Shown here: positions 6,401 through 44,428 of the stretch, in pieces
How the letters are laid out: every line of letters begins with the position of its first letter
How positions within the stretch are numbered: the stretch's first letter is position 1
Source of the DNA: Arctopsyche grandis
Taxonomy: Eukaryota; Arthropoda; Insecta; Trichoptera; Hydropsychidae
Assembly (NCBI RefSeq): GCF_051622035.1
Contig: NC_135355.1
Span: forward strand, 42,201,486 to 42,265,485
Direction: 5' to 3'
Length of the DNA stretch: 64,000 bases
Translations under genes and position numbers: made by a program
The notes under the pieces: generated by a model
Databases searched by the model: none
Told to the model about the DNA's origin: nothing
The model's input: only the letters and a program-made list of their open reading frames with translations

Positions 6401-9400
6401 TGACTTTTTTCAACTTAATTAGTATCACAGGATATTTTTCGATGTCGCTGTGAAGAAACCAAAATTAATTTCGAGTCGTAGCCTTAAAAACGAAGGTGGG
6501 CGGCTTGTGGCGATGAAGTGGTTAAAACCCATTTGCCGCAGCCTGGGTTACTGATTGATGATGCGTGTCAACTAAGTTTACTTACGAGTGCTCTCGTATA
6601 GTGTCAACTTGGTATTAACAGCATATGTACGTGAATATTGACTCACTAATGAATGTATAAAGCTAATGTTTGTGATGAAAATGACTCAATGTACGCAGAT
6701 ATCCGAGATGCAGTATATCTTTTTCTCATGTTTATCACAAATTGAGATATATAAATGAAATTTATACATGGTCACAACAAAAAACGTTATCAATTGTTTA
6801 CTGTGTACGTAGAAAATATTAAAACGAAATAAGATCCAATTGACATTTTATAATTGGTGTCGGATTCTAGGAAAATGCCAGAGTCGCGTTTTTCAACGAC
6901 TCCACAGCCTTGAATTTAAACACATTTAAAAATATCACATTACAATATCAATTCAACATCAAAATATTTCTTTTATAACAAAATATAAGTAATAGAACAG
7001 CAAAAATAAAATGTATAATACAATCAAAACACAGGTATTTAGGCATACATAAACAAATAAGACTTATATCTGAACAAATTATTGATTGATGGAACAAAAA
7101 ATTTCAAACTACAATCTGACATATTATTATAATACGAATATTAGTCACAAAGTTTTGATACAATTTTCGACTAGTTTTTACGTGCTAATTTTTACAAACA
7201 ATACTCATCGAGTCCTACAAAAAAAAAACCACATATTTTCAGTGCAATTTTCTTAATACAATTACATCTTTATATGTAATTATTAATCACAGGAAACAAA
7301 TTGCACTTCAAAAATAAAATTAAATACACATGTAAAAAACAATTTCATAAATTATATATTTTTCGCATCGATTATATATTCTACTTTGAGCGGAATACAA
7401 ATTTATTTTTTTGTACAAATTCAAACATACATACAAACATTACTGCCTAATACAAATATAATACATATAAAAAGAAAGTCAATAATTTGTTCAGACAAAT
7501 AAATACCTGACATTTTTAAAAAATTGAAAAAGTCCAGCATACCTGTTATGCGGTGCGTTGACGGGGCCAGGGCCGGGGCCGGGGCCAGGGCCAGGGCCAG
7601 CTCCGGAACCAGTGCCGTAGCCGGTAAAATGTCTAGGACGGGGACCGGTGGGGGGTATTTGACGAAGACGTTCCTGACTATTGGCACGAGGAGGACCCTT
7701 GAACGGCGACGCACCCACAAATCTGCAATAAGTCAAAACGCAAAATTAATATCTAACGAATTGTGTCAACCTAGCGTGCTACAATGATCAAACAACAAAA
7801 CAAATGGCTAATACAGTAAAAAATAAATAAAAAAAAAAACACAAATGTACTACAATAAAATTCGAGCACATAAAACCATTTTGATAAAAAATAAAATAAA
7901 TTAATGACGATTATGGGTCACCTAATTATGATTGCAATTTTTATACATGTGCTTGGGGCCATAATGCTAATGATTTGGGGCAACTTGACACTTAAACCAT
8001 AGCAAAAATGAAACAAATCTTTATCTATATATATATATATATATAAATGAATGTCTCTGTGTGTGTGTGTGTCTCGTATAGGCTGCTAAACCACTCAAAT
8101 GATTACGATAGAACTTTCAGGATTTGTTGTATGCATGTCCAGGAAGCTTACTGTGAAAAAAAAACGGGAAAAAACCTCATAACACTATAGCAGCTGCGCG
8201 GTTAAAACTGTTGAACGTCGCCAGGGGCCGGCACAATTTTTTAAAAATTAAACTTTATATATATTCACATGTACATGCATATAAATCCGTTTCCATTCCC
8301 GTTTTTGGGCGATTTTTTTTCACAGTAATCTTTCCGGACATGCACGAAACAAATCCTGTAAGTTTCATCGTAATCGGTTGAGTAGTTTAGGAGCCCAAAC
8401 GAGACAAACAGACAGACAGACAGACATTGATTTATATATATATATATATATAGATATATAGATTAAAATAAATATAAAATAAAAAATTAAACATAATTGT
8501 ATCATCGACCAGAAACGATTGACGAAAACGTAATACAAAAAGATATCAGCGGACTGAAACAGTTCGCGCAGTCGTGAATCATATATAGACAGTAGATAGG
8601 AATATTTTATTACAAAAATTATATAAGTTAGGAATAAATGGTATAGTATTAAAGTGGCTTTCAATCATACTTAAATAATAGAAGGCAAATAGTAAAAATT
8701 GATAAGGTGTTATCCTCTGAATTTGTAACACCTCATGGAGTGCCGCAAGGGTCCAAATTGGGACCCTTATTATTTATATTATATATAAATGATATTGTTA
8801 AGGTAATTAAGATGTGTAAAACACATTTGTTTGCAGATGATACATTGATATATATGATTGGAAAGAATGTTGATGTAATGTCTGAGATTTTAAATATAGA
8901 ATTAAATTATGTGAATGACTGGTTGTGTGAAAATAAATTAAAGTTGAATGTGAATAAAACAAAAATGATGTGGTTGAATGGTAAAAATAAAAATATATTG
9001 AATGAAATTAGAATTGATGATAAGTTAATTGAAAAAGTTGAAAATATAAAATACTTAAGTGTATACATAGATTCAGCACTAAATTTTAAAATGCACGCTG
9101 ACTATATAATAAAAAAAATGGCTAGAAAAGTTGGTATATTATGTAGATTAAGAAATATTTTAAGTAAAAAAAGTAAAATTTTAGTGTTTAATTCAATTGT
9201 CTTGCCACATGTGGTTTATTGTGCCACTGTGCTTAATTTGTTTAGTGGCCAAGATTTAGAAAAAATGCAAAAAATACAGAATAAAGCTATGGGAGGTATT
9301 TTGAATGTGAGTAGATTTAAGAGTATTGGAAATATGTTAGATGAATTAGTATGGATGAGTATTAGAATTACTCTAAATATTAGTACATTGTCTTTTGTTT

Positions 9401-12400
9401 ATAAGTTAGATCATAAGTTATTACTTAAGTATTTTGATGATTATATAATAAGGAATAGAGATAAACATAGTTTTTATACTAGAAATAAGGACAAACTAGT
9501 ATAAGTTATATAAGTTAATTATAAATTTTAGAGTTAAGTATTAAGATGTATTTTTAAATTAGCTTGATAGCTAAAATATATATAAATAAATATATGCATC
9601 AGCGGCCAATAAGAGTTGGCACCAACATGATGCAAATATGAGTCAGCGGCCACCATTGTGTTAATAATAATATTCGTAATTACGATTGTACCGACGCGAA
9701 AGTTTGAAACGCCATTGTGTAGTCAAGGAAATGTGTTCGTTGGTAACCACATTATCAGTTAGTTTATGACGACAAGGTGGTGAAGAGACGTCATCCGAGT
9801 TCCAACCATCACTTGAAACGGGAACGGGAATTGCACGCCTTATTCTGGCATTGCAACGCATGCTTGGTTCAGCTAGTAGTATAATAATATTGTAACGTGG
9901 GGCATTATGGGGATTAAAAAGTGCATTCGGGAGTCGACAATGAAGACCCTCGGATAAGGCCGAGCGGCACTTCCCGCTAGCTCTCAGAATCCTGACAAGA
10001 GCGTGAGATTGTTTGTGCCCGAGACCGTGAAACTGTAAACAATGGAGAAACAAACGGATCAGGGAAGCTGTAGTGAGCAGCTTGCCTTTCATAAAGAGGT
10101 ACTTAGGCCATATCAGATCAATCTGGAACGAGCGCTGGCTGCTTGTGGACCTCCTTAATCATCCAATAAATGCTGTGAAGCGACTTTAGCCTTTGATTTG
10201 GATCCTCCACCCACCCCTACGCAACAATATGTATAAAAACGGACGCAATGTATGTGGCGGAGGGATGAACAAGTATGGAGATTTCAAAAAAACAAATAGA
10301 ATACCAGGAGTATACATAAGCATAGGGATGTGGCGTGATGACCGATCGTGTCAAGGAGACGCGGGAAGTGAGGCGTCTGACATGTGCTCCTGATATTGAA
10401 CACCTCACTTGGAACGGGTGACGTTAGCGTCCGATGCGCTGCGCGGGAGCGTACAAATATACACACATCCACGAAGACACACACACACATTCATTCATCA
10501 TTTCGAAGCGGGCGAACGAGGAGCGTTTTAATAAGCGCGTGCGCCTATAAATTGCCTTACAGTATATTTATATAAAACATATAACTTTATTTTAATTCGT
10601 GTATCAATTCCTTTCCGAAGCCACCCGTTGAAATCAACGGGCACAACAGTAGTTCATAATAATAGACGATTGTTAAAAATGAACACCTTTGACGCTGGTG
10701 GGACGGTGGACCTTGCGGTGGTGGAGTGCGGAGTGGAGAACGATAACGAGCTGGAGATCCTCTTCTTCTTGCCCTGCCCGATCGCGGAGAGTGAGAGCGG
10801 GATACGGAACGGGAGCTGTAACATAGATGTAAAAATGCACTCACCGCCGAGACGATAAAGCAAACAGTGGTGGTCGTGTAATACACTTACCGACTGATCG
10901 AGAATGAGTTGGAGCGACGATCGCGAGATCGACGCCGCGGAGGAGGTGGAAGTAGCGCCCGTCTCGGAGGTGGACTGCGTGAATACGATCTATACTTTTC
11001 ACCGCCGGCACGACGAGCACCGGGCGAGCGTCCTGATCCCGGCAGTGAACGCGATCGTGACCTGAAATAATTAACAGTACATTAATAATGGCAACAAATT
11101 ATTTGGTTAGTTTATAATTCCAAAAGTGGTCAGTAAAAAAATTAATAAAAATTTATTAGCAATTAATTATAAACTTGATCAGTAACATATTCTTAACACA
11201 ATGTTGGCCGCTGACTCATATTTGCATCATGTTGGTGCCAACGCTTAGTGGCCGCCGATGCATATATGATTCACGACTGCGCGAACTGCTTCAGTCCGCT
11301 GATATATTTTCGTATTACGTTTTCGTCAATCGTTTCTGGTCGATGATACAATTATGTTTCATTTTTTATCTTATATTAGATTTATTTTCTTTTTATTTTA
11401 ATCTATATATTATATATAAAATTGAATGTCTATCTGTCTGTCTCGTATGGGCTCCTAAACTACTCAACCGATTACGATGAAACTTACAGGATTTGTTTTA
11501 TGCATGTCCGGAAAGATTACTGTGAAAAAAAATTCCGTTCCGAAAAAAAATTCGAAAAAAAAAAATACGGGAATGAGTGTCATTGCAACGCAATAATTTC
11601 GTAATTTGCGTAAAAAAAATTCGTTAAGTGTTCCTATAGATACAGAACCATCGATATTTTCCATTTTTTTTATTTTATTTTATTTCATTCTTATGCATGT
11701 ACATGCGAATATATATAGTTTCTTTTAATTATTTTTTAAAAAATTGTGCCGGCCCCTGGTGAAGTTAAACAGTTTAACCGCGCGGCCGCTATAGTGTTAA
11801 TGATCAGTAGAATATAATGAACAATCAGTAAATTATTCATTTTTATTCAGTAAAGAATTCTTTTTTTATCAGTAAATAAATCCTTTTTGATCAGTATTTT
11901 ATTTAAATACTGATCAAAAAGGATTTTATATCAGTGAAATTATAATTTTTGACAGTTGAATGATAGCGCTTTGCCCCGCTATGGTCCACTCCCACTCTCC
12001 TCGTGGTCCAAACACCGCAATATCCATCCAAACACATCGTGATATATTTTTTTTTAAAGTTTTATTTCATCAATATTTTCACAAAAAAAAACATATCTTA
12101 GCAAGCCAACACTTAATTATTTAAAGCTGAACCTTAGGTTAGGTTAGGTCAAGTTGATTTGAGTCAAGGTTTTTGATCAGTATTTTATTTAAATACTGAT
12201 CAAAAAGGATTTTATATCAGTGAAATTATAATTTTTGACAGTTGAATGATAGCGCGGTGCCCCGCTACGGTCCACTCCCACTCTCCTCGTGGTCCAAACA
12301 CCGCAATATCCATCCAAACACATCGTGATATTCTTTTTTTTTTTTTAAGTTTTATTTCATCAATATTTTCACAAAAAAAAACATATCTTAGCAAGCCAAC

Positions 12401-15400
12401 ACTTAATTATTTATGGCTGAACCTTATGTTAGGTTAGGTCAAGTTAGGGTTGGCCCTATTCATTTAAGATTCGGTTGTTAGGGTCGGTATCTATTTTTGT
12501 CAAATTTTATATACTTTTAGATATATATTATATATTTAATGAAGCTGACATCATTCATGTGCATTTATATCAATAATACGATATAAGGTCTGTTCATACC
12601 TATTCAGCACGACCCGTATCCTGCAGGTGTCATGCAAGTGCGGATAGTATTCTTTGGTACATTATATGGACGTATTCATACTCCATTCGCGCATGCACAT
12701 TTACGCATTCATGCGCGTCCATATAGAATGTACCAAAGAATACTATCCGCACTTGTATGACACGGGTCGTGCTGGATAAGTATGAACGTCTGTTCATACC
12801 TATAATCGTAAACGTCAACAGACACGCGATATGCGATATGGCAACACTGACGATTTTCTGGCTGTCAAAATGAAATGATCATTTTTAAATGATATTACTG
12901 ATCATCTTATAATAATTATCAAACGTTTCATTTTATTATCTGATCACTTTGGTTTAATAACTGACCATTTAGTCTAATAACTGATCATTTAGTTTAATAA
13001 CTGAGTATATGACAACTGATCACAGCATACTGATCATTTAGAATACTCATTGATAATTTCGAAATATTAACTGACAATTTAGTTATTTTTGTTGATCAAA
13101 AGCTGAATAAATTACTGATATGCATTGAAGTAGAATGGGTAGAAGCGCTCTTTGCTTCCAAAAATGTTGCCACAAAATCTCCGTGCAAACGAAGATACCG
13201 GCTGTTTTGCTCAGTTGTTTGTTAAACTCTGTAGCAGTAGGATCTCTTTGAAATAGGCTCTACTAGATTGAAATAGATGCACGTGCTCTACTAGATTGAA
13301 ATAGATATACTCTTTGAAATAGTTGCACGTGCGTATAGATGTTCGGACCAGCCTCACTCATTGAAAAACAGGGCCGTACACCGTATTCTTTTTTAAAACT
13401 AATGATGGTTGTCGTACCAACATTTCCACGATGAAACTTCTCGGTTGCAAAATTGACATAAATAATGTAAATTCAACATTTAGACATCCTTCTACAGGAA
13501 GAAATGTGGCAGTATTTCTGGATGCTTGCCATATGATCAAGTTAGTTAGGAACACATTTGAATCTCAAAAAATTTGTTTCGATAACGAAGGAAATGAAAT
13601 GAAATGGTCGTATGTATGTAATTTAAATAAAACTCAAGAACTAGAAGGTCTTCATATAGCCAACAAATTATCGCCACGTCATATTTTATTTAGAAATCAG
13701 ATAATGAAGGTTAAATTAGCAACACAATTACTAAGTCGAAGTGTTGCCAAGGCAATAGAATTTTGTAGAGATGATTTGAAAATGCCTGTATTTAAAAATT
13801 CTGAAGCCACCTGTAAATTTATTCAAAAAATGAACGATCTGTTTGACATATTAAATTCTCGAAATTTAGGACATCTTGGGTATAAACATTCATTATTTGA
13901 GGGGAATAAAAATGAAATTTTTAAATTCTTAGATGACGCTACAGATAATCTACGTTCACTAAAAATAACCATTAGAACGAAAACCACAAAAAAAATAAAT
14001 GGAGTAACGGAAGTATAGATAACTCAAAAGATAAAAAATTTGATCGAAACTAAAAATAAAACTGGGTTTTTGGGACTTAAAGTTGATATACAAAGTTTGA
14101 AAACTGTGTATAATAATATAATTCAGGATGAAAAATGTTTAAAATTCATTCCAACCTACAAATTTAGTCAGGATCACATTGAGTTGCTATTTGGAAACAT
14201 CAGATCACATGGAGGATATAATAATAGCCCCAATTGCCAGTTTAAATCAATATACAAGAAGCTACTAAACCACCTAGAATTAAGATCTTCATTTAATGGA
14301 AACTGCATACCTCTTGAAAATATTACTATACTAAATTGTACATCAGCTATTCAACAAATCAATCAAACGTCTTCAAAATATCGTTTTGAGGATGAAATTG
14401 ATGAAAATATTGTTGAAATAGGATATAGCGAAACAACGTCAAAATCTTTGAATTATGAATTAGTTTCGCAAATGTTGTCAGATAATAGTCGCCAAATTAT
14501 CGGTTACATCTCGGGGTGTATAGTTCGATTATTAATGAAAAAAATTAAATGTGAAGACTGTATTGCAAGTCTGTTAGCAACAGAAGAAATGTGGTTTCAC
14601 AAGCTCATTAATTTGCGGAATTTGGGTGGACTATGTTACCCATCATCTGATGTATTCCAAATATGCCTGAAATGTGAAACTGTAATAAGGAAATTAATAA
14701 ATGAAAATGACGGGAAAACATTATCGAACAAAATCACAAACGTAGAAATAGTTTCTGAAATATTAAAATTATTTTTGGGTACCAATATTTTTAGTTATAT
14801 ATCAGTGCATTCTACAGATCAGCCTGTTATACAAAACCATAGATTACAGTTAATTCACGCAACCATTGAAAATTTTGTTAAAATTAGAGTTTATTACATT
14901 TTAAAATTATTTTATTTATGATATGTATAGTACTGTCACACTAACACACTAACATTATTTATAATATGTCATTCTGATTGATATGTCATATTTGTATATT
15001 TATATATTTCTAATTCAACTAAATTCTCGCGACTAGGAGGCTTCCACTTTTGGGGACTGATAACACTCCCAAGGAAGGGATCCTCTTGGGCAGCTATTTA
15101 AATTTTTCACTTAATTTCGCGTAAACGCCTTTCTTATTTCTTTATATGTATTGTAACTATCGTGAAAATTGTTTAAATTAAAGATAACTTGAGTCCCCTT
15201 GGTTATAGTGGAGTACCCTTATGGACCACTGATACAAGGGCGGGAAAGAGGTGGAAGCGCAACTTCCTATGGGTCAAAAGCTGTTAATAGAGATAAAAAG
15301 TGATATTTTGTATTTTTAAATTGAATTAAAATTAATATTTTATCTATTGATACTTCGTAAATAGATAAAATAAAAATATGCCCAATGCCACCCTGAACGT

Positions 15401-27384: not shown

Positions 27385-27495
27385 AGAGTTCAGTGATTAT
27401 TCCGCACAAAGCAATCTCGCACACGTCATTAAAATCTCGATTACAGAACATCTGCCACCCGAAAATTCCATCCTACGAGAGTTACTCATGTAGAC
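27385..27495. mobile_element. MITE copy 3, left part, split by the BEL element
   Basis: AGTGATTATTCCGCACAAAG followed by TTAAAATCTCGATTACAGAAC matches the left half of the 27095-27283 copy. The right half (ATCATACTAATGAGAA ... AAGCGATCGCAATGTCTGA) continues at 31386-31475 on the other side of the BEL element. Confidence 0.75.
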
Positions 27496-27899
27496 TGAAC
27501 GATAGCTTCAGGAGCTGTAATGTGTGTGTGTATGCTGGGTGACCAGTGGCTGTGTGTGTGTGTCGTCGTCTCTATGTGTGTTCAGCTCGCTCTGGAGCAC
27601 GTGCTGGAACAGGGCGGGGTGGGGAATTAGAAACGTCAGCTCGGGTTATCCTCGTTTATTAAGGAATAGATGGCGAGCCGGGGAGTTTGCCGGCGCCTGT
27701 GCCCCTTTATGGCGGGGGCTGTGGATGAGTACGCTGGCTGCAGCTGGTCACTGGTCAGGCAAGGTAGACCAGCTACGCCAGTACCGTCTCGGCCGGCGGA
27801 TGGCGGGCGTCTCGTCCGGCGGATGAGCGCGCCTCGTAAAAATGAGTGCGCGCCCGTAAGAGCCCAAAACACGGCCATGTGGGTTTGTTGGCTCGGACA
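27496..27899 (-). repeat. 3' LTR of the BEL/Pao element
   Basis: 404 bp; on the minus strand it starts TGTCCGAGCC and ends ATCGTTCA. It differs from the 5' LTR at one visible base (CTGGTCAGGCAAG here, CTGGTCGGGCAAG in the other). Contains one CACGTG near 27599. Confidence 0.95.
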
Positions 27900-28300
27900 T
27901 ACTCCCCGGGGTTGGAATATTCACAATATTTCAAGAAAGTTAACATAATAACAAAGCAGACAACAAACAAACAGAGCAGTGGTAACAAACATCTTCTTAG
28001 GAACTAAAGCCAGCCCCCATGGTTAAAAGTGCAAAAAAAAACATTATAGCACACCGACAAAAAAAAACCAAACCAACTACTACAAGGGTAAAGTGTCATT
28101 AGCAACCAAAAGAAAACAAAACAAACTTAATGGATACAGCGTCAATTAGCGCACCACAACCAAACCAACTACACTGGCACAAACACAAAATTAACTTAAA
28201 GGATCAAGCGTCAATTAGCGCACCACAAGCAAACCACTACTACATTGGCACAAACATTTTTGTTATAAGTTTCACACAGAACAAGAAAAAGCACAAAAGA
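27900..28300 (-). other. 3' spacer of the BEL element with a duplicated segment
   Basis: Between the pol remnant and the 3' LTR. It contains a direct duplication of about 70 bp (units from 28136 and 28207, sharing AGCGTCAATTAGCGCACCAC and TGGCACAAACA). No domain is visible in any frame. Confidence 0.6.
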
Positions 28301-28305
28301 CAAAA

Positions 28306-30714
28306 TTATATGAGGGAGGGAGAACAGTGAGTGCACCCAGGCCTAGTCGGCTGGTCAGGGGGCCAACGAGCGTCTCGCCAGCTGCCCTGTCGGTGATGCC
28401 CCTCTGAGTGCACAGGGTGATAATTCGTGCGACGCCGTCGTGCCCAGGAAGCACCAACGCGACTCGCCCCATGTTCTGCATGCCGCTCGGTCGGTAGTCG
28501 AGCTACTCGTTGGGCTGCCTTCCTGGTGTTGCTGTTGAAGGAGTGTGCCGCACTCCTCCAGTGACCATCTCTGCCCGCTGCTGCAGATGCTGGTGCGGTA
28601 GCGCCCGTGCTGCGGGCTGATTGAGCAGATCCTCCCGCTGTTGAGCAACCAGTGGTTCGCCAGCTAGGAATTGACCAGGAGTTTTTGGAGCTGGGTTGGG
28701 AAGGTCGGATGAAATGAGGAACAACGGGTGCGGGTTTACCGCGGCTTCTTTTAGAAGCGGGTTCCCTAGGTTTTGGCAACGGAACTCTTCGGTCCGCCGA
28801 CGGATCACGAGAAGCTTTTTGATGGCAGTTCCCGGAGCGGTTGGTTGTTGGGACTGAGCCCAGTTCCCCACTAACAACCCAGCCGAACGAAGTGTTCAAC
28901 AGGTGAATGGTAGAGCCCCGTTCGCTGGCGAGTGAGGGAGGAATGGAAATATTCCTCCTACCGTCTTTAAGGGACTGATGGAATGCCAAGCATCCGAGGA
29001 CCATGTCGACTGCCCCCGGCGAATCAAATGTGGGGTCAGCCAGGTAAATACGCTGGGGCAACCCCAGCCGTAATTCCGACAGGTCTCTGGATGGAACATT
29101 GTTCGTGATCTTAGGGATCACTAAAAACTCCATCTCCTTTATTTTGGCATGGCTCCTCGACCCCCGAGGAGCAACGTGCAAGACTACGCCCTGGGAGATT
29201 GGCGTTTCCTTACAGCCTACCCCGACCATGCTTGCATTCAATGCATGCGGTTGGATGTTCAACCGCTGACGCAGGTCATTGGAGATGATGTTCATCTCTG
29301 ACCCACTGTCGAGCAGTGCTCGACACTTATGCCAACGCCCATCGCCTCCACGGGCAGACAACACCACTGTGGATAACAGAATGGTGCGAAGGGTTGTTGC
29401 TGCCCTGACGGTTGAATGCAGGGAATGAAGGCTAGGCGCGTGTGGCGCTTCGTTAGCGACGCTTGCAGCCCTTGGGACAGGAGCAGCGTTGAAGTGTTTT
29501 GGAGTCCGAGTAAACTCGGCGTGCAAAAGTGTGTGGTGTAGGTTGCGACAGTGGGAGCAACGAGTTTGGCTCTTGCAAGCTGTCGTCTGGTGGCCAGGAC
29601 GCAGGCAGTTCCTGCAGAGGTTTGCCCTTCGGACCAGGCTGATTCGCTCTGGTGGGGCCAGGTCCCGGAACGAGGAGCATGAGTGGAGCACATGTTCACC
29701 CCGACACTTAGGGCAGGAAACTGCCTTGACTCTCTCGTGATGAGCGGAAGTCCCGGTAACCGCCTGTATGCACGGACGCGGCTGGTGCATCCTCTCGATG
29801 GCCTCGCCGTTCATCTGCACTTGGCACTGAAACCGGAGGAACGTGAGAAATTTGTCGAATGTCCAGTCCTCGTACTTGACCGATTGCTTGTCCCATTGCC
29901 GGGCAGTGTACCGGTCCAGCTTGGACGACAAGGAAGATACGAGGATGTCGTCCCATGTGACGACGGGGACGCCCATGGACCCGAGGGTGCGGGTATGCAT
30001 GGTGATGTCATCCAACAGCCGCCGCAACCCTTGACCGACGTCATGGCCCACAGGCTCAGCGTTGAGCAATGCCTGGACGTGTCTCTGGACCAACAACCTC
30101 TTATTGTTGTACCGGTCCTCGAGAATGGACCAAGCGGTGGTGAAGGCCCCTTCCGCACAGTCGAGGCCGCGGAGAATGTTGCGGGCCTCACCGGTAAGAC
30201 TGGCAGTAAGATATTGGAAGCGGACTGAATCCACTTTACTGCCGTCTATTGCGGCTTGGAAGCGTTGGGAGAACTGGGGCCAATCTTCGAGCTTCCCATC
30301 GAATGTTGGCAGTTCTAGTGCCGGGAGACGAATGGGTTGGTCCACTGGGGGAGTAGCGAGTTGGTCAACAGTGCGACGGACGGTTTGATCGACCGGGAAA
30401 AGGTCGCTTGGGGGGGAGGTTCCTCCCGACAAGGTGATGCTCTTTGCGGCATCTAGTTTGTCCAGCACTGCATCTGTATATGCCAAATAGGCGTCCTCAA
30501 ATTCGTCCCATGTCAGCGCGGACTCCTCCGCCTCTTTGAGCTCTAACGCTTCTAACTCGGACTGCGTGTCCAAGAAATCGAGACGCAGCTGGCGCGCCTC
30601 CTCGAGCTTATATTCGTGTCGGGTCACGCTCGGCGGTAATTGGTCGACCAGATTCGTGAGCTTCGTCAGCCTTCCCCGAAGGGCGCCACGACGACGTCGC
30701 AATTGAGTCGTCAT
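28306..30714 (-). CDS. BEL/Pao Gag-protease polyprotein (802 codons, 3' part frame-shifted)
   Basis: Retrotransposon structural protein with an aspartic protease. Seen in order: a charged N-terminal region (about 1-120); a DUF1759-type Gag segment around LPALELPTFDGKLEDW (about 148-300); Cys/His clusters at about 340-400 (CPKC, CRNCLRPGHQTTAC as a CCHC knuckle, CSHCRNLHH); and a retropepsin-like region with LLDSGSEMN, whose DSG is near residue 466, followed by FGWVVSGELG near 625. After about residue 630 the frame is basic and low-complexity and does not look like BEL pol. The parallel frame carries integrase-end motifs instead, so the last 170 residues probably come from an out-of-frame deletion junction. 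The start ATG at 30714 follows a leader. Overlapping plus-strand frames (for example 29683-30228) are shadows. Confidence 0.9.
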   Translation of the reverse strand: MTTQLRRRRGALRGRLTKLTNLVDQLPPSVTRHEYKLEEARQLRLDFLDTQSELEALELKEAEESALTWDEFEDAYLAYTDAVLDKLDAAKSITLSGGTSPPSDLFPVDQTVRRTVDQLATPPVDQPIRLPALELPTFDGKLEDWPQFSQRFQAAIDGSKVDSVRFQYLTASLTGEARNILRGLDCAEGAFTTAWSILEDRYNNKRLLVQRHVQALLNAEPVGHDVGQGLRRLLDDITMHTRTLGSMGVPVVTWDDILVSSLSSKLDRYTARQWDKQSVKYEDWTFDKFLTFLRFQCQVQMNGEAIERMHQPRPCIQAVTGTSAHHERVKAVSCPKCRGEHVLHSCSSFRDLAPPERISLVRRANLCRNCLRPGHQTTACKSQTRCSHCRNLHHTLLHAEFTRTPKHFNAAPVPRAASVANEAPHAPSLHSLHSTVRAATTLRTILLSTVVLSARGGDGRWHKCRALLDSGSEMNIISNDLRQRLNIQPHALNASMVGVGCKETPISQGVVLHVAPRGSRSHAKIKEMEFLVIPKITNNVPSRDLSELRLGLPQRIYLADPTFDSPGAVDMVLGCLAFHQSLKDGRRNISIPPSLASERGSTIHLLNTSFGWVVSGELGSVPTTNRSGNCHQKASRDPSADRRVPLPKPREPASKRSRGKPAPVVPHFIRPSQPSSKNSWSIPSWRTTGCSTAGGSAQSARSTGATAPASAAAGRDGHWRSAAHSFNSNTRKAAQRVARLPTERHAEHGASRVGASWARRRRTNYHPVHSEGHHRQGSWRDARWPPDQPTRPGCTHCSPSLI
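28350..28740 (-). pseudogene. Remnant of BEL pol C-terminus (integrase end)
   Basis: In frames other than gag, the minus strand reads KTPGQFLAGEPLVAQQ (near 28640-28690), the TPGHFLIGxPL-like motif that follows the BEL/Pao integrase core. It then reads GRVALVLPGHDGVARIITL (near 28410-28470), the DUF5641-type C-terminus. These lie only a few hundred bases after the protease, so RT, RNase H and the integrase catalytic core are deleted, and the remnant itself changes frame. Confidence 0.8.
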
Positions 30715-30958
30715 GACTTCCGAGAAACTGTGAGGGGTGAAATGATATCACGGGGGAGGAAACCCGCGCCGTGAAACAAAAGGGGGGGAAAAACCCACGC
30801 CGTTAAACAAAAAGGGGGGGGGGGGAAACCCACGCCGTTAAACAAAAGGGAAGCGGGATTACAAGATGGCGGACAGCCAACACAAAGGAATAACGGGAGA
30901 GACAAAATGGCTGACGACCAACCTGGTATGCCGACGACAGAGTCCAGCGCTGTAGATC
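30715..30958 (-). other. BEL leader with G-rich tandem repeats
   Basis: The untranslated leader between primer site and gag has about three imperfect 30-bp repeats (AAACCCACGCCGTTAAACAAAA with runs of up to 12 G, plus strand 30762-30850). Their role is unknown. Confidence 0.6.
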
Positions 30959-30976
30959 ATCCGGCTCGAAGGACCA
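30959..30976 (-). other. Primer binding site, tRNA-Tyr type
   Basis: Directly inside the 5' LTR the minus strand reads TGGTCCTTCGAGCCGGAT. Its complement is ATCCGGCTCGAAGGACCA, which matches from memory the 3' end of insect tRNA-Tyr with CCA. Confidence 0.8.
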
Positions 30977-31380
30977 TGAACGATAGCTTCAGGAGCTGTA
31001 ATGTGTGTGTGTATGCTGGGTGACCAGTGGCTGTGTGTGTGTGTCGTCGTCTCTATGTGTGTTCAGCTCGCTCTGGAGCACGTGCTGGAACAGGGCGGGG
31101 TGGGGAATTAGAAACGTCAGCTCGGGTTATCCTCGTTTATTAAGGAATAGATGGCGAGCCGGGGAGTTTGCCGGCGCCTGTGCCCCTTTATGGCGGGGGC
31201 TGTGGATGAGTACGCTGGCTGCAGCTGGTCACTGGTCGGGCAAGGTAGACCAGCTACGCCAGTACCGTCTCGGCCGGCGGATGGCGGGCGTCTCGTCCGG
31301 CGGATGAGCGCGCCTCGTAAAAATGAGTGCGCGCCCGTAAGAGCCCAAAACACGGCCATGTGGGTTTGTTGGCTCGGACA
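30977..31380 (-). repeat. 5' LTR of the BEL/Pao element
   Basis: 404 bp, almost identical to 27496-27899 (one visible difference). It is followed by the TAGAC target copy at 31381-31385. Confidence 0.95.
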
Positions 31381-31385
31381 TAGAC

Positions 31386-37879: not shown

Positions 37880-39097
37880 TCAATATTTTTTGATGATCTT
37901 TACATATGCATTATATATTTCTTGGTCTTTAGAAGCATTTCTAATGCATCGTGCCTTATCAGTTACAACGCAAATTGGTTTTTTACCATCAAAGTATGAG
38001 GTAACGTAGTATGCAATTTTACGTCTTTGGAGAACATTCAGCAACTGTTCCAAACAAACACATTGCCATGGGTTTTTGTGCAAATAGAGTGTTTTGAGTT
38101 TTTTAGGAATCGTCGCTGGGACAAGATTGGTAAACCGATTTGCCGATATATCCAAAGTTTTCAGTGTGACTGTGGTGAAGACAGGTAAATTCTGCAGTTT
38201 ATTATTTGAAACACTGAATGTGTCGAGTTGAGGCAAATGCGTGGCAGCAGTCACGTCACTTAATTGATTTGTTGATAAATTCAACATTTTTAAGACCTTC
38301 AAGCTTAAAAACACGCTTTCTTCCAGATTAGATAGTATATTGTTCGAAAGATCTAAAAATTTCAAATTTTTCAAATCGTTAAAATGCAAATTTGGTATCT
38401 CTGATATACCATTCCCTGCCAGATGTAATTTCTGCAGCGTGACGGCCATGTCAAAGATTCCTGACGGCATGTTATTAAATTTACTGTACTCCAAATTTAT
38501 CGTTTTCACTTGCTTCAAGGCATCAAATATTCCAAGTGGTAGTGTTTCCATCACATTGTAAGATAAATCGAGGTACGTTATTAAATTTGGTTTGTCGAAG
38601 AGACCTAGTGGAAGTCCGACTATATTGTTGTGTTGCAGATGAAGACTAGCGAGATTAGCGAGAGGGTCAAGGGCTCCCAATGCGATATGTGTTAATTTGT
38701 TGTGAGACAAATCTAAAGTTTGGAGACCAGACATTTGATCGAACAACCCCAGAGGAATCTCGGCTATACTATTGTATGAGGCATTCAACAGAATCACCGT
38801 TTGCAACTCATCTAATACTCCAAGGGGTAAATTGCTAAGACTGTTTAGCGAGATGTCCAAAACTTCTAGAATTGGTAAATTTCCAAACGATCCAAAGTCG
38901 ATAGCAGTCATCTTGCAGTTGGATAAGTAGATATTTTTGGTGATTGGACCGTCAGAGACAGTTCCGTACTGAAGTGTGTTATATTCTTCGTTCGACGTAC
39001 ATGTGACGTCTTCGCCATCTTTGTCACAAGTTAACTCACAATTGTGGTACACTATAAGATTTGTTGCGATAAGAAACAAAATATTCACTTTCAACAT
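37880..39097 (-). CDS. Secreted leucine-rich-repeat protein, paralog 1
   Basis: A 405-residue single-exon protein, function not known. Seen: signal peptide (about 1-20, MLKVNILFLIATNLIVYHNC); N-terminal Cys cap (CELTCDKDGEDVTC); about eleven LRRs with consensus LxxLDLSxNxLxxLPLGxFDxL from about 60 to 330; an LRRCT cap (NPWQCVCLEQLL, with further Cys near 374 and 381). No transmembrane helix or GPI signal at the C-terminus, which is lysine-rich (KIIKKY), so probably an extracellular soluble protein. LRR proteins of this layout in insects include hemolymph immune factors such as LRIM/APL1, but those have coiled coils not seen here, so the comparison is only structural. The tandem paralog lies at 41592-42818. 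Confidence 0.92.
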   Translation of the reverse strand: MLKVNILFLIATNLIVYHNCELTCDKDGEDVTCTSNEEYNTLQYGTVSDGPITKNIYLSNCKMTAIDFGSFGNLPILEVLDISLNSLSNLPLGVLDELQTVILLNASYNSIAEIPLGLFDQMSGLQTLDLSHNKLTHIALGALDPLANLASLHLQHNNIVGLPLGLFDKPNLITYLDLSYNVMETLPLGIFDALKQVKTINLEYSKFNNMPSGIFDMAVTLQKLHLAGNGISEIPNLHFNDLKNLKFLDLSNNILSNLEESVFLSLKVLKMLNLSTNQLSDVTAATHLPQLDTFSVSNNKLQNLPVFTTVTLKTLDISANRFTNLVPATIPKKLKTLYLHKNPWQCVCLEQLLNVLQRRKIAYYVTSYFDGKKPICVVTDKARCIRNASKDQEIYNAYVKIIKKY

Positions 39098-41591
39098 TGT
39101 TTTGATATGTACAGTTCAACACAACGGATGAAATGGACTGAGTGAATATCACAAAAAGTGGTAAAACCTGTACTCAATAAAATGACGCCGTATTCGATAT
39201 ATAATACAAAAAATATAATAGTGGTCAGCCAAGATGTTATCCTTGAGATGAACCCCATTAAAAGTTCATTCATATCTCATTGTCAGTTTTTTTTTTAATG
39301 ATAATAAATCATATGCATTCGTTTTTGTTCAAGAATTATTAAATTTAATTTAGACATCCGAGTATCGTTAGAGCAGGATAAATTTCGAGTTCCGAACTGA
39401 GCAACTGTTTTATTTTTTTTTTCGGAATTATTATACAATAATAAATTTATAACATTCTCATATTACTACTTACCTTCTCTCCCCGACAAGAGTTTAACTC
39501 TTTAATCTTGGTTAGCTGATTTTTTATTTATTTATTATGTTATATTAGCTAAATTATTTAGATGTGTATGTCTACATATGTATATGTAAAGCAGGGAAGG
39601 TATGTTAACCGTATCCCGGCCTAACGAAACACATGTTGTGTAGTTTGTAAGAGGATCGTTTATTTTTGTTCAATTGTTACAATGGTTATTGTATGTACGA
39701 AGAGGTTGAGCTTCGGAGAAGTTAGCTGGTTGAACTCCAAAGGTTCACTATGGTGTTGGGAGCTGGTGCGTCGCTTTATATACGTTCTGGCTTGAAGCGT
39801 GCCGCGTGCAGATGCTTTGTCTTCGTTTCCAGGACACGTGTGTTAGAGACACGTGTTGACCTGTTTTCGAGGCACGTGTCTTCGGTACACGTGTGGTTTA
39901 TAGCTATGGGGTCAGCGCCAGGACGTCGTTCGTTTGAGAATGGGGTCGTGTGCCACGCGTAAACGACTGCCACGTGTAAATGGTTGCCTGATGACATCCC
40001 TGTTGGGTTTCGTTCGTTTTACGATCGAGCGATGAACTCTTTCTTCTGGAATGGTCGAAGGGGACGTTGCCCTTGAGTTATGCATGTTTGTACAGGATCG
40101 ATGATGAGATCACTGGTTTTGCTTCGTAATAGCACAAGTCGTGCAATATTCCTACAAATACTTACTTACAATATACAAACACATACATATCTAATTTTAA
40201 TACATATAAATAAAATTAGATAATGTTAAGATCATAGATTTCCGTATTATCTCGGAGGTAATTATTATGAATAGTGCTTTTCTTTTTTTTTTAATGTTTC
40301 TCCAAGAATGCTATGTATAACCATCAATAATACTGATAGCATGCATAAAATTTATTCTAAAATGAATTAATTCCAAAAGTTATTAATTATTAAGGTCAAT
40401 TAATAAACTAATGCCAATATGTATTAATAGGATTATGAATATCTATATCAGGTTTGGATATATGCCATCTGATACCTAATTATTATTATTATTTATATTG
40501 TATGATTTTTTGTATTTAATTTAGCTAGTGAAAAATTAATTGAAAAAAATTCTATAATATAAAACATGTGTATACGTTTATATGTCCATATGTATGAACT
40601 TTTGTAAATAAATTGAAAAAAATTAAAAATCTACTCATTTTTTAAATTTATTTTTTTATTTTATCGGGAATATGGTTAGTATTTGGTGTCATGTTCGTAA
40701 GACTTATTTTTATAGATGAATAAATGTTGTGATTTTTCCCTAAAATTAAACTAGTTTTATGCATAAGTGTAGGTACATATTAAAAAAATTCATTTTTGAA
40801 AATATTACTTTATTTAAAAAAATAAACCTTCAGTTTAGTTATAATATACATACATACATCAAGTGTCGTTGAGAATTATAATACATTTCCTAATTCATAA
40901 TCCAATTGGAAAGTTTTTCGTTTACAAGCAATATAAAATATCTTTGATAAATTTGTCAGTTTTAGTCAATTTCGATGAACTCACGATTTGACTATTTTTT
41001 CGCTTTCGGGATTATACTTCCCCAAACTACCAAAATTTAATATAATATTTATCGCAAAATATTTCTCAACTACAGAGATAACACAATGGTTCACTTTAAC
41101 TTGAGCAATGAGTTAATTTTTTGTATATAGTGATCAAACACGTTTCGGGAGTTAGTTTAATTACTCGCGATCCGATTTCAGAGCGTGTTCAAAATCAACT
41201 GGCGAAAAATCTGAACAAACACACAGAGTTTAGTTTTAAAATTGATATAATATATTTTGGTCGCGTTCTATGATTTATTAAAGGAAAGATGTTTAACTAA
41301 TAAAAAGGTCGACTTGTATCCCATTATAAAACCGACATGCTTTTGACTTTTATAAAATAGTTTTGGTGGAAGATTTCAATGTTATTCAAGAAAATAGTAC
41401 TAATTTGTTTTATTGTTATAACACTAGAAAAATATAAATGTACATATATGTACAAGAGTAAGACAGAATCCTCAGCTATATGTACATAAAATAAAACGAG
41501 ATTTAAATACATTGAAAAATAAGAGAGTTTTACATAAAAATTACAGAAGTTAAATAATCAGTGAAAAAGGCGCGCCGCTTCGCGGCCCCCC
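39098..41591. other. Spacer between the two LRR genes
   Basis: It contains the upstream region of paralog 1 and the E-box LTR copy C (39595-40150). The rest (40150-41570) is AT-rich with TACATACAT-type tracts and no gene recognised. Upstream of both LRR genes the minus strand shares a TACAGGTTTTACCAC / TACAGGTTTGACCAC motif (near 39160 and 42905), a possible conserved promoter or 5' UTR element. Confidence 0.5.
39595..40150 (-). mobile_element. LTR-like sequence, E-box family copy C
   Basis: Homolog of 25304-25850. On the minus strand a CGTATATAAAGCGACGC TATA box lies near 39777, with AATAAACGATCC downstream near 39660. Five CACGTG sites (39835, 39850, 39873, 39888, 39971) are upstream of the TATA box. 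Exact ends were not found. Confidence 0.55.
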
Positions 41592-41645
41592 TTAAGCCTC
41601 GGCGCCCCCCCGCATTGCGGGGTCTGCGGTCGTGGTAGCTACGAC
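41568..41645. repeat. GC-rich patch forming the 3' end of LRR paralog 2
   Basis: About 75 bp (GGCGCGCCGCTTCGCGGCC, CCTCGGCGCCCCCCCGCATT, GCGGGGTCTGCGG), strongly GC-rich in AT-rich DNA and with small palindromes. A similar patch with GGCGTCTGCGCCCCC is at 46248-46345. Confidence 0.65.
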
Positions 41646-42818
41646 ACTGTTAGAAGTATATTCAACACATCGTCCTGTATCACTGATGACGCACTCAGGC
41701 TGTGAGCCATCAATGTATAGAGAAACGTCATATGTGATACCTAGTTTTTGAAAAGCAGTTAGCAATTGATCCAAACAAGCACATTGCCATGGATTTTTGT
41801 GTAAATATAGTTCATTTATTTTTTTTGGAATCCATGCTGGAGCAAGAAAGGTAAATCGATTTGCAGATATGTTTAAGGTTCTCAACGTAGTCGTAGTGAA
41901 CACAGGTAAGCTCTGCAATTTATTATTTGAAACATCCATAGTATTGATTTGAGGCAAATGCGTAGCAGCAGTCACATCTTTTAATTGATTCGTTGATAAA
42001 TTCATCATTTTCAAGACCTTCAAGCTTAAAAACACGTTTTCTTCTAGATGAATTAGTGCATTGTTCGAAAGATCTAGAAATATCAAATTTTCCAAATTTT
42101 TAAAAAGGAAATTTTTTATTTCAGATATACCATTTCCAGCGAGATATAATTTCTGTAACATAATGGACTTGTCGAAGATTCCCTGTGGTATGTTATTAAA
42201 TTTACTGTACTCCAAATTTATCGTCGTCACTTGCTTCAAGGCATCAAATATTCCAAGTGATAGTGTTTCCATCACATTGTACGACAAATCGAGGTAAGTT
42301 ATTAAATTGGGCTTGTCGAAGAGCCCTAGTGGAAGTCCGACTATATTGTTGTGTTGCAAATGAAGACTAGTTAGATTCGCGAGTGGGTCAAGTGCTCCCA
42401 ATCGAATGTGTGTTAGTTTATTGTGAGACAAATCCAAATCACGGAGACGAGGCATTTGATCGAATAGTCCCAGAGCAATATCGTCTATATTATTGTATGA
42501 GGCATTCAACAGTAACACTGCGTGTAATCCATCGAGTACTCCAAGGTTTAATGTGTCGACACTATTTAGAGAAATGTCTAAAACTTCCAGATTTGGTAAA
42601 TTTCCAAACGATCCCATGCTGATAGAGGCCAAGTTGCAGTTTGATAAGTTGATACGCTTGACGATGGGACCGTTCGGGGTGATTCCGTATTGAAATGCAT
42701 TGTAGTCACTATTTGATGAACAGGAGATGAACTCGCCATCTCTACCGCACTTTAACTCACAATTAATTTGCACTATGATAGTTGTCGCAATCACAAACAA
42801 AATTTTAACTTTTAGCAT
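41592..42818 (-). CDS. Secreted leucine-rich-repeat protein, paralog 2
   Basis: Tandem paralog of the 37880-39097 gene, same strand, 408 residues from the ATG chosen at 42818 (MLKVKILFVIATTIIVQINC), which aligns with the paralog's start and signal peptide; the open frame extends 19 codons further upstream but those look untranslated. Same layout: signal peptide, Cys cap (CELKCGRDGEFISC), about eleven LRRs, LRRCT cap (NPWQCACLDQLL). Residues from about LDLSHNKLTHI to NLEYSKFNN are almost identical to paralog 1, the flanks much less so. The last 17 residues (VVATTTADPAMRGGAEA) are unrelated to paralog 1 and encoded in a GC-rich patch, so the original C-terminus seems replaced. Function not known; extracellular location inferred. 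Confidence 0.9.
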   Translation of the reverse strand: MLKVKILFVIATTIIVQINCELKCGRDGEFISCSSNSDYNAFQYGITPNGPIVKRINLSNCNLASISMGSFGNLPNLEVLDISLNSVDTLNLGVLDGLHAVLLLNASYNNIDDIALGLFDQMPRLRDLDLSHNKLTHIRLGALDPLANLTSLHLQHNNIVGLPLGLFDKPNLITYLDLSYNVMETLSLGIFDALKQVTTINLEYSKFNNIPQGIFDKSIMLQKLYLAGNGISEIKNFLFKNLENLIFLDLSNNALIHLEENVFLSLKVLKMMNLSTNQLKDVTAATHLPQINTMDVSNNKLQSLPVFTTTTLRTLNISANRFTFLAPAWIPKKINELYLHKNPWQCACLDQLLTAFQKLGITYDVSLYIDGSQPECVISDTGRCVEYTSNSVVATTTADPAMRGGAEA

Positions 42819-44428
42819 CTTTCCGATGTGAATAATGTTCGTATACTTCGAGGCAAAGAATGAACCGTACTGCAAAATTAAGCAATTTAAAGTCGAAATT
42901 GGTGGTCAAACCTGTATCAAATAGGGGAAATCAGGTACGAAAGTATCATGTCATATACATCATGTCAACACAGAAAGACAACGGTACTCCATCGCGAGCA
43001 AAGCGGTCATTTTAAAAGGATTTCAGCTTAGCTTAGCAGCTCCTCTCCTCCCGGAAGAGCTAATTTCTATAGTTCAAGCTCCACTGCAGAAGAGGCGAGA
43101 AACTGAGGGAAAAACCGCGCAAAATGGAAAAGTTTCAAGACGATTTGAAGACTATAGGAAATTTAGTTCAATCTTTTGCCAAAGCAAACTAATCTACTGA
43201 TCGTTTACGAATCGAGCGGGACGAGGTGAGATGCTAGATGCCACCAATCCTCTCCCCCGTGTTTGGTGCTATTTTTAAAAGCAAAAGCTTTAGTTTATTA
43301 AAATTCTCTTCGTCTAAATCACGAAATGAGGTGCAAAACTTCTCATTCTCTTCCCGAGTCCGAATATGTCACTTTTTATATTGTTTCAAGTGAATTATTT
43401 TTTCGTGATTTGAATCAAGATCATTTGATCACTTTATCGATTAGCTTCGCTCGCAGTGGAACTCCGTTTTTCAATAGACAACATTTCGGGGTATAAATCT
43501 AACTGTAAAATGTTATATTCTAGATAATCCGCCATTCCCTCAAACCAGACTTTTCAAAATGGGTATAATTTCTAAATTTCTTGTCAAACAGGCAAAGATG
43601 CGGCCGTCAAAGATGCGGCAAAGCCCCGGTCAAAGATGCGGCCCACGACTTCAATTACATAATAATATTAGAATTATACTCGAAACACCGTCATAAAGTC
43701 TCAGCTTCGCGACAAAAAACTTGAGCGATTTGCATTTTATAATGTGGAAAAATCAACAAAACTGGCTGATCTTCTTGTTAAGCGCCGAGAAAATAAAAAT
43801 GAAACCTCAACCAAAATTTCGTGTAAATTTTAAGTGATCATTTTTCTTTGCTTTGGGCTTGTGATTTTTAATTAAGTGATCAATGCTTCTTTCATCAGAT
43901 TTCGATATATACAATTGGATTTTAAATGAAAAATGTTACTTTTGTCCCGGGTTTCCCCCGCGATAAAATTTAATATATGTATAATTTCGAAAGAGATTTT
44001 GTAAGTGTTAACCAGAGTCGCACTGTCCATATGTGCGAATTGTGCAAATGACACGGCCGCCGAATTTCTTGACGGAGCCGTCTTCGGGTCCCCTTTTATT
44101 ATTACTAGATGTGAAACAAAAATCTAAAAGGCGAACGAACAATGGTAAAAATAACACTTTTTCCTAGATGTCTTGCCGGATGTTAACACGGCCGCCTTTT
44201 GTATCGTTTTGTATTTTGTACCGAGAGAAGATTTCCAAATGCAAACCCATACAACAAAGGTTGTGACCGTGAACAAGAAAATTGGCCATGTTCGGTGCAA
44301 TAAATTTTGTTTACGACGTACAATTCTTTGGATTAGTTCGAAGCTTACAATATTGGAACGCCACTTGGATTGACGTTTTGTTGGCGAAAGCGCACGTGCT
44401 GAGGACCCCTTCCATACAAATATAATAT
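42819..44428. other. Intergenic region upstream of LRR paralog 2
   Basis: Contains the paralog 2 promoter region. Further right are AT-rich DNA and a short direct repeat CAAAGATGCGGC (three copies at about 43592, 43609 and 43630). No gene recognised. Confidence 0.4.

Follow-up and report, generated by a model that had tools for sequence, protein, structure and literature searches.

The present analysis concerns a stretch of 64,000 nucleotides from the trichopteran Arctopsyche grandis (contig NC_135355.1, positions 42,201,486 to 42,265,485 of the forward strand), in the following called the window. It contains a complete element with long terminal repeats (LTRs), which occupies positions 27491-31385 on the minus strand including the target duplications. 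The element is a non-autonomous BEL/Pao derivative and not an autonomous member of that group, and it probably belongs to a gag-protease-only family that is mobilised in trans. Its features are as follows (positions in the window).

27491-27495: target-site duplication TAGAC, left copy
27496-27899, minus strand: 3' LTR (TGTCCG...CGTTCA read on the minus strand)
27900-27907, minus strand: GGGGAGTA, a short purine-rich stretch adjoining the 3' LTR, with identical letters in the 14 copies compared
27908-28305, minus strand: 3' non-coding part, which holds a 69-bp tandem repeat at 28116-28256
28306-28819, minus strand: pol/integrase-end remnant, out of frame relative to the gag-protease frame
28820-28837, minus strand: junction zone of about 15 similar letters, in which the similarity to the protease of full-length BELs stops and the similarity to the remnant of a second family, f2, begins
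28306-30714, minus strand: gag-protease frame from the first ATG (30714) to the stop; the open frame is 28306-30747, 813 aa from stop to stop
29113-29331, minus strand: aspartic protease stretch, an Asp_protease_2 match under the family cut-off
29869-30303, minus strand: DUF1759 gag domain (Pfam E 2.7e-25 on the 813-aa frame)
30751-30851, minus strand: leader tandem repeats, about three units of 31-35 bp
30959-30976, minus strand: primer-binding site matching the host tRNA-Tyr, just inside the 5' LTR
30977-31380, minus strand: 5' LTR
31381-31385: target-site duplication TAGAC, right copy

The orientation on the minus strand identifies the repeat at 30977-31380 as the 5' LTR. The alignment of the two LTRs spans all 404 bases and has a single mismatch and no gaps, exactly the difference stated in an earlier note on this DNA, and the TAGAC duplication given there is present on both sides. 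A tRNA-Tyr-type primer site had also been proposed, and indeed 17 of 17 letters match the 3' end of tRNA-Tyr with CCA added (by script, the 18th letter by eye); the same 3' letters end all five tRNA-Tyr-like genes that one pattern found in this genome. In the 813-aa frame the Asp_protease_2 match (E 5.5e-4) stays below the curated cut-off (21 versus 24.3 bits). We take D-S-G at 29302-29310 to be the aspartic protease motif, and a motif at 29575-29616 within gag, read from the translation, is presumably a zinc knuckle of the CCHC type (both minus strand). Reverse transcriptase (RT), RNase H and the integrase core had been reported as missing, and no Pfam match to these families was found at E<=0.1 in the three window frames searched. 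Also as described earlier, integrase-end sequence follows directly after the protease in a different frame. The gag-protease frame stays open across this remnant down to 28306.

The assignment to BEL/Pao is based on the TG...CA ends of the LTRs, the 5-bp target duplication, and DUF1759 gag and protease in one frame, the latter with the sub-cut-off match. In addition, an RT frame and integrase ends with DUF5641 are seen in relatives of the element, and we take DUF1759 and DUF5641 to be markers of BEL/Pao. The pol of an autonomous member, with RT, RNase H and integrase, is represented only by the out-of-frame remnant. The element is neither a solo LTR nor a dead fragment, as the internal part is present and the frame is unbroken in the window copy.

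The genome search covered the window's own assembly (475.7 Mb, 189 contigs) and scored only the best candidates, so that all copy numbers are lower bounds. The earlier note had suggested a search for copies with the same deletion junction near 28700-28850. The junction was placed at about 28820-28837, and a query across it was matched end to end at 97-100% identity in at least 13 places. Inspection of the flanks reduced these to at least 11 independent insertions, because L017-L019 have common flanks and were counted once, as one triplicated insertion. L021, which kept parts of the element and lost the junction through a further deletion, is outside the 11. Exact 5-bp duplications flank nine of the 11 insertions; in L012 the duplication is shifted by one base, and in L017-L019 four of five letters match. 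The mismatches between the LTRs (gaps not counted) are 1, 0, 0, 7, 1, 0, 0, 1, 1 and 4 in the window copy, L009-L016 and L020, respectively, and 16-17 in the triplicated L017-L019; thus 9/11 insertions have at most four mismatches and 8/11 have none or one. If about 3e-9 mutations arise per site and generation, a single LTR difference in 404 corresponds to an age of roughly 0.4 million generations, an estimate with a very large error. In eight of the 11 insertions the gag-protease frame is open at least as far as aa 799; it is broken in L010, L012 and L017-L019. The shared junction and the mostly near-identical LTR pairs bear out the proposal of a non-autonomous, recently mobilised derivative: the copies form a mobile family, here called f1, which moved recently. 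Exact 5-bp duplications at eight of 11 LTR-only loci fetched characterize these eight as solo LTRs and not as hidden full-length parents.

Nine further places that span the junction with 87-90% identity, at C2:31.7-34.1 Mb, are older, mutually similar copies. The 3-Mb region C2:31-34 Mb contains many such older f1 copies (L027, L028, L042, L043, L045) in both orientations, which suggests a heavily duplicated chromosome stretch.

The note had also proposed looking for a full-length parent that shares the LTR, and two loci, L022 and L023, fit this description. They share the LTR type of f1 (86%), gag (93-94% over most of gag) and protease (90%; gag-protease together 90-94% DNA identity), followed by open RT frames of 717 and 742 codons, and they indicate that a full-length f1 type existed. 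They are the only two with more than 62% identity among the 86 RT matches listed (485 candidates at first pass). An insertion of about 0.56 kb interrupts their gag, which is also frame-shifted, and the integrase match near them covers residues 117-322 of 445. The two are near-identical to each other and are probably one duplicated stretch. As far as searched, the full-length f1 type is therefore nearly gone from the assembly, and two duplicated copies with damaged gag are left. Intact BELs of other types are present: among the next 18 RT matches listed there are stop-free frames of 1764 aa (four) and 1798 aa (six). One of them, the C10 BEL with a 1764-aa frame, has a primer site identical to that of f1, and the leaders of the two are 79% identical over 67 columns starting at the primer site, which would fit a common packaging region and is no proof of one.

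A protein search with gag-protease yielded 72 matches, of which 51 have 41-42% identity, and 49 of these 51 are stop-free in the match. The frames of this second family, f2, are nearly all 747-801 aa long among the matches listed. The f2 copies L040, L041, L054 and L055 have the same build as f1, namely gag, protease and an out-of-frame remnant. L040 also has TA-rich simple repeats of very unequal length near both ends (L040:3696-4031 and 7543-8100). While gag of f1 and f2 is only about 41% identical, the remnant begins alike in both families and has some gaps relative to the integrase of L051 in common, and the stretch 28481-28735 is 78% identical to f2. Among the best 150 of 553 candidates, the f1 remnant matches f2-type remnants in 105 cases (a hand count including L056; 55-65% aa identity, 77-93 bits), compared to 18 cases for intact BELs (47-50%, 46-51 bits). 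In the alignable part, 75 of 363 bases differ between f1 and f2 in 16 blocks, whereas the difference from the f1-type integrase of L051, which is 98% similar to the fragment near L022/L023, amounts to 138 of 490 aligned bases, spread over 28 blocks. Synonymous sites between f1 and f2 are saturated (pS 0.81 in gag, 0.76 in protease). Therefore, the remnant either is younger as a shared part than the divergence of the two gag-proteases or is constrained at the nucleotide level. Nucleotide constraint alone would be the alternative to a shared origin; however, in L017/L018 synonymous divergence is also low in the protease (0.008 versus 0.10-0.11 in gag), which fits better with an exchange of blocks. 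A further integrase end, marked by DUF5641, lies in a frame of 215 aa at G000:C12:7635146-7635572.

Divergence varies along the f1 sequence, a pattern compatible with a mosaic. At the junction, the similarity to the protease end of full-length elements (L022, L025) meets the similarity to the f2 remnant within about 15 letters. In eight young f1 copies (without L011, L018 and L020) the 3' LTR differs by 0.5-3.6% and gag-protease by only 0.11-0.70%, and for L015 the contrast has a Fisher p of 2e-9. We take this as a sign of mosaicism; a difference in mutation rate would be the alternative. Many pairs of sites among nine f1 copies fail the four-gamete test.

A fresh recombinant seems to be represented by L056 (G000:C6:20400800-20404500, L056:1-3701), which has an open frame of 854 aa. 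Its similarity to the C10 BEL is 98.1% in the LTR part, 97.1% in the leader and 99.4% in the first 334 nt of gag. Compared to f2, its gag-protease is 73-87% and its remnant 96-99% identical, and the part after the remnant is 98-99% identical to L040, L054 and L055 and 75% to L041. The change of the similarity partner is sharp, and L056 is best read as the product of an RT template switch from one BEL to another, one of them autonomous and the other not.

Signs of selection on the coding part are mixed. The protease has a pN/pS of 0.14-0.16 in comparison to L027, L028, L042 (C2) and L044 (C162), four older, mutually similar copies, of 0.37-0.39 to L022/L023, and of 0.65 to L017, the latter on three changes. 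Across 443 codons, gag of L021 shows 152 differences without a single stop, for which simulation gave a chance of 0.003-0.01; the respective chances of a stop-free gag are 0.03-0.04 for L017/L018, 0.11-0.12 for L022, and 0.29-0.47 for L020 and L011. Within f2, gag of L040 versus L054 has a dN/dS of 0.28. Given the recombination, part of the constraint on gag and protease may have acted in full-length elements.

We also considered a new, selected overprinted domain in the tail and rejected it, as the in-frame pN/pS is 0.88 (window copy versus L040) and 1.65 (window copy versus L027), and substitutions relative to L040 are distributed nearly evenly across the codon positions (24, 22, 25). An alternative, protein-based alignment with L040 gave 0.72 (pN 0.29, pS 0.40; 0.64 after correction). 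When the f1 tail was shuffled by mononucleotides, only 0.3% of the resulting sequences were stop-free, and the tail frame of f2 is open, too. Read as protein, the out-of-frame tail gives no clear sign of constraint, and a weak one is conceivable.

Taken together, we consider it probable that f1 is a recently inserted, trans-mobilised, gag-protease-only BEL/Pao family, which was built by recombination or template switching and is helped by full-length BELs. Judging from the frame open in 8/11 insertions, Gag-Pro may still be made, and f1 RNA would be packaged into particles built, at least in part, from the Gag-Pro of f1 itself. Copying and integration would be performed by RT and integrase of full-length BELs, most likely of the intact 1764/1798-aa type, because f1's own full-length type is nearly gone. 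For f2, such a helper is suggested by the recombinant L056. The build of f1 would go back to an RT template switch, which probably joined the LTR-gag-protease half of a full-length type to an older, pol-deleted tail, the one shared with f2.

More tentatively, and with somewhat less than even confidence, we propose that the pol-deleted tail defines a long-lived non-autonomous lineage, the LTR-gag-protease half of which has been renewed repeatedly by template switching with active full-length BELs. f1 and f2 would then have taken halves of different types, and L056 would be a fresh case. If this is true, the non-autonomous form does not fall behind its helpers and persists longer than its own parent.

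Several observations weigh against trans-mobilisation of a recombinant family as outlined above. Gag is weakly constrained in the more diverged pairs (pN/pS 0.59-0.80), and the protease values of 1.29 with L018 (five changes) and 0.96 with L021 (12 changes) indicate no constraint. The open frames of the young copies may reflect nothing more than their youth. The search brought up no f1 copy that had recombined with an intact BEL, so that the helper of f1 is guessed from the primer site and the short leader match, and the LTR, the 3' part and the first 600 nt of gag of f1 gave no BLAST match to the C10 BEL piece. Of the 16 other copies read, 15 have two to three mismatches over the 17 letters of the primer site; that of L021 is perfect like that of the window copy, where it is possibly the trace of a primer-templated renewal of the site. 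L056 is a single copy, its exchange could have happened at the DNA level, and its 5' LTR part appears as close to the f2 copies L040/L054 (98.6-98.9% over about 280 nt; 88% to L041, 79% to L055) as to the C10 BEL. The four-gamete signal comes from few sites, and six of seven nc3 sites lie in one cluster. Lastly, among the best 150 of 553 candidates the nearest relative of the f1 remnant by identity outside f1 is the full-frame integrase end at C12:7635398-7635571, within the 215-aa frame mentioned above (71% over 58 aa, 81 bits). The source of the tail may therefore be a third full-length type, now a relic, and the tails of f1 and f2 might stem separately from such a type.

The strongest competitor is a plain deletion, in which a single full-length f1 element lost most of pol internally and was amplified entirely by proteins of a full-length relative, with gag-protease as a passenger. 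Deletion derivatives are common, the junction lies in short similar letters like those of ordinary deletions, and the weak constraint on gag and the two high protease values would be expected of a passenger. Nevertheless, we regard this explanation as unlikely. The divergence of the remnant from the f1-type integrase (138/490) stands against a synonymous distance of gag-protease to L022 of 0.07-0.16, the remnant is nearer to f2 (75/363), and both the low protease pN/pS in comparison to the four older copies and the stop-free gag of L021 are at odds with a mere passenger. Very unlikely is a two-part element, in which RT comes in trans from L022/L023 and Gag-Pro from f1, in mutual dependence. 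It would make sense of an open RT with a broken gag in L022/L023 and the reverse in f1; however, the integrase match near L022/L023 is partial, the two are probably one duplicated stretch, and intact BELs are present in the genome. An assembly artefact, in which full-length copies were collapsed and pol was lost from the assembly, is extremely unlikely in view of the common junction in at least 13 places on several contigs and of ten different exact or near-exact 5-bp duplications besides that of the window copy.

Elsewhere in the window, two adjoining, similar open frames of 411 and 437 aa form a tandem pair on the minus strand (37880-39115 and 41592-42905), the products of which look like secreted leucine-rich-repeat proteins. 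Open frames on the plus strand at 8653-9504 and 13365-14921 resemble the end of a non-LTR reverse transcriptase and a THAP-type transposase, respectively.

Reliance of a non-autonomous LTR element on a partner is known from BARE2/BARE1 and from LTR-swapping partners in soybean. BARE2, which lacks gag, is the reverse of f1 in this respect. The closest parallel is offered by the TR-GAG elements of plants, outlined as LTR elements with an open GAG frame, without RT or integrase, and with an existing full-length relative, one of which was seen transposing in Arabidopsis ddm1 (PMC8704663). As far as this outline goes, f1 has all of these structural features; it differs by belonging to BEL/Pao, by its protease stretch, pol remnant and mosaic build common to two families, and by residing in a genome with TTAGG telomeres, which are typical of arthropods. 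f1 may thus work like a TR-GAG with help in trans, yet it is not classed as one, because a TR-GAG consists of LTRs and one GAG frame without further pol domains, and f1 has a protease next to gag as well as the pol remnant. Recombination during replication has been outlined for ONSEN, members of which recombine pairwise (PMC5668417). ONSEN is, on that account, one plant family, whereas here a full-length and a pol-deleted type seem to have been joined. Non-autonomous pararetroviruses of grasses are presented as defective elements with autonomous or complementary partners, with which they share sequence by region-specific recombination (PMC5491270). The likeness lies in the partnership and the sharing; in these plant viruses, as presented, regulatory parts are shared, whereas coding halves are seemingly exchanged here. 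No gag-protease-only BEL/Pao family is described by title or abstract opening in the literature searched, in which subscription coverage is thin, so that this carries little weight.

Non-autonomous LTR elements are often regarded as short-lived offshoots of a single parent. The situation in A. grandis contrasts with this view: little is left of the parent type in the assembly and the pol-less f1 is still young, and f2-type remnants outnumber those of the intact BEL type 105 to 18 among the best candidates scored. If the tail truly picks up new gag-protease halves, this would explain the persistence of such parasites, and the parts with which it can be tested, namely a recombinant, intact partners and dated copies, are present in one genome.

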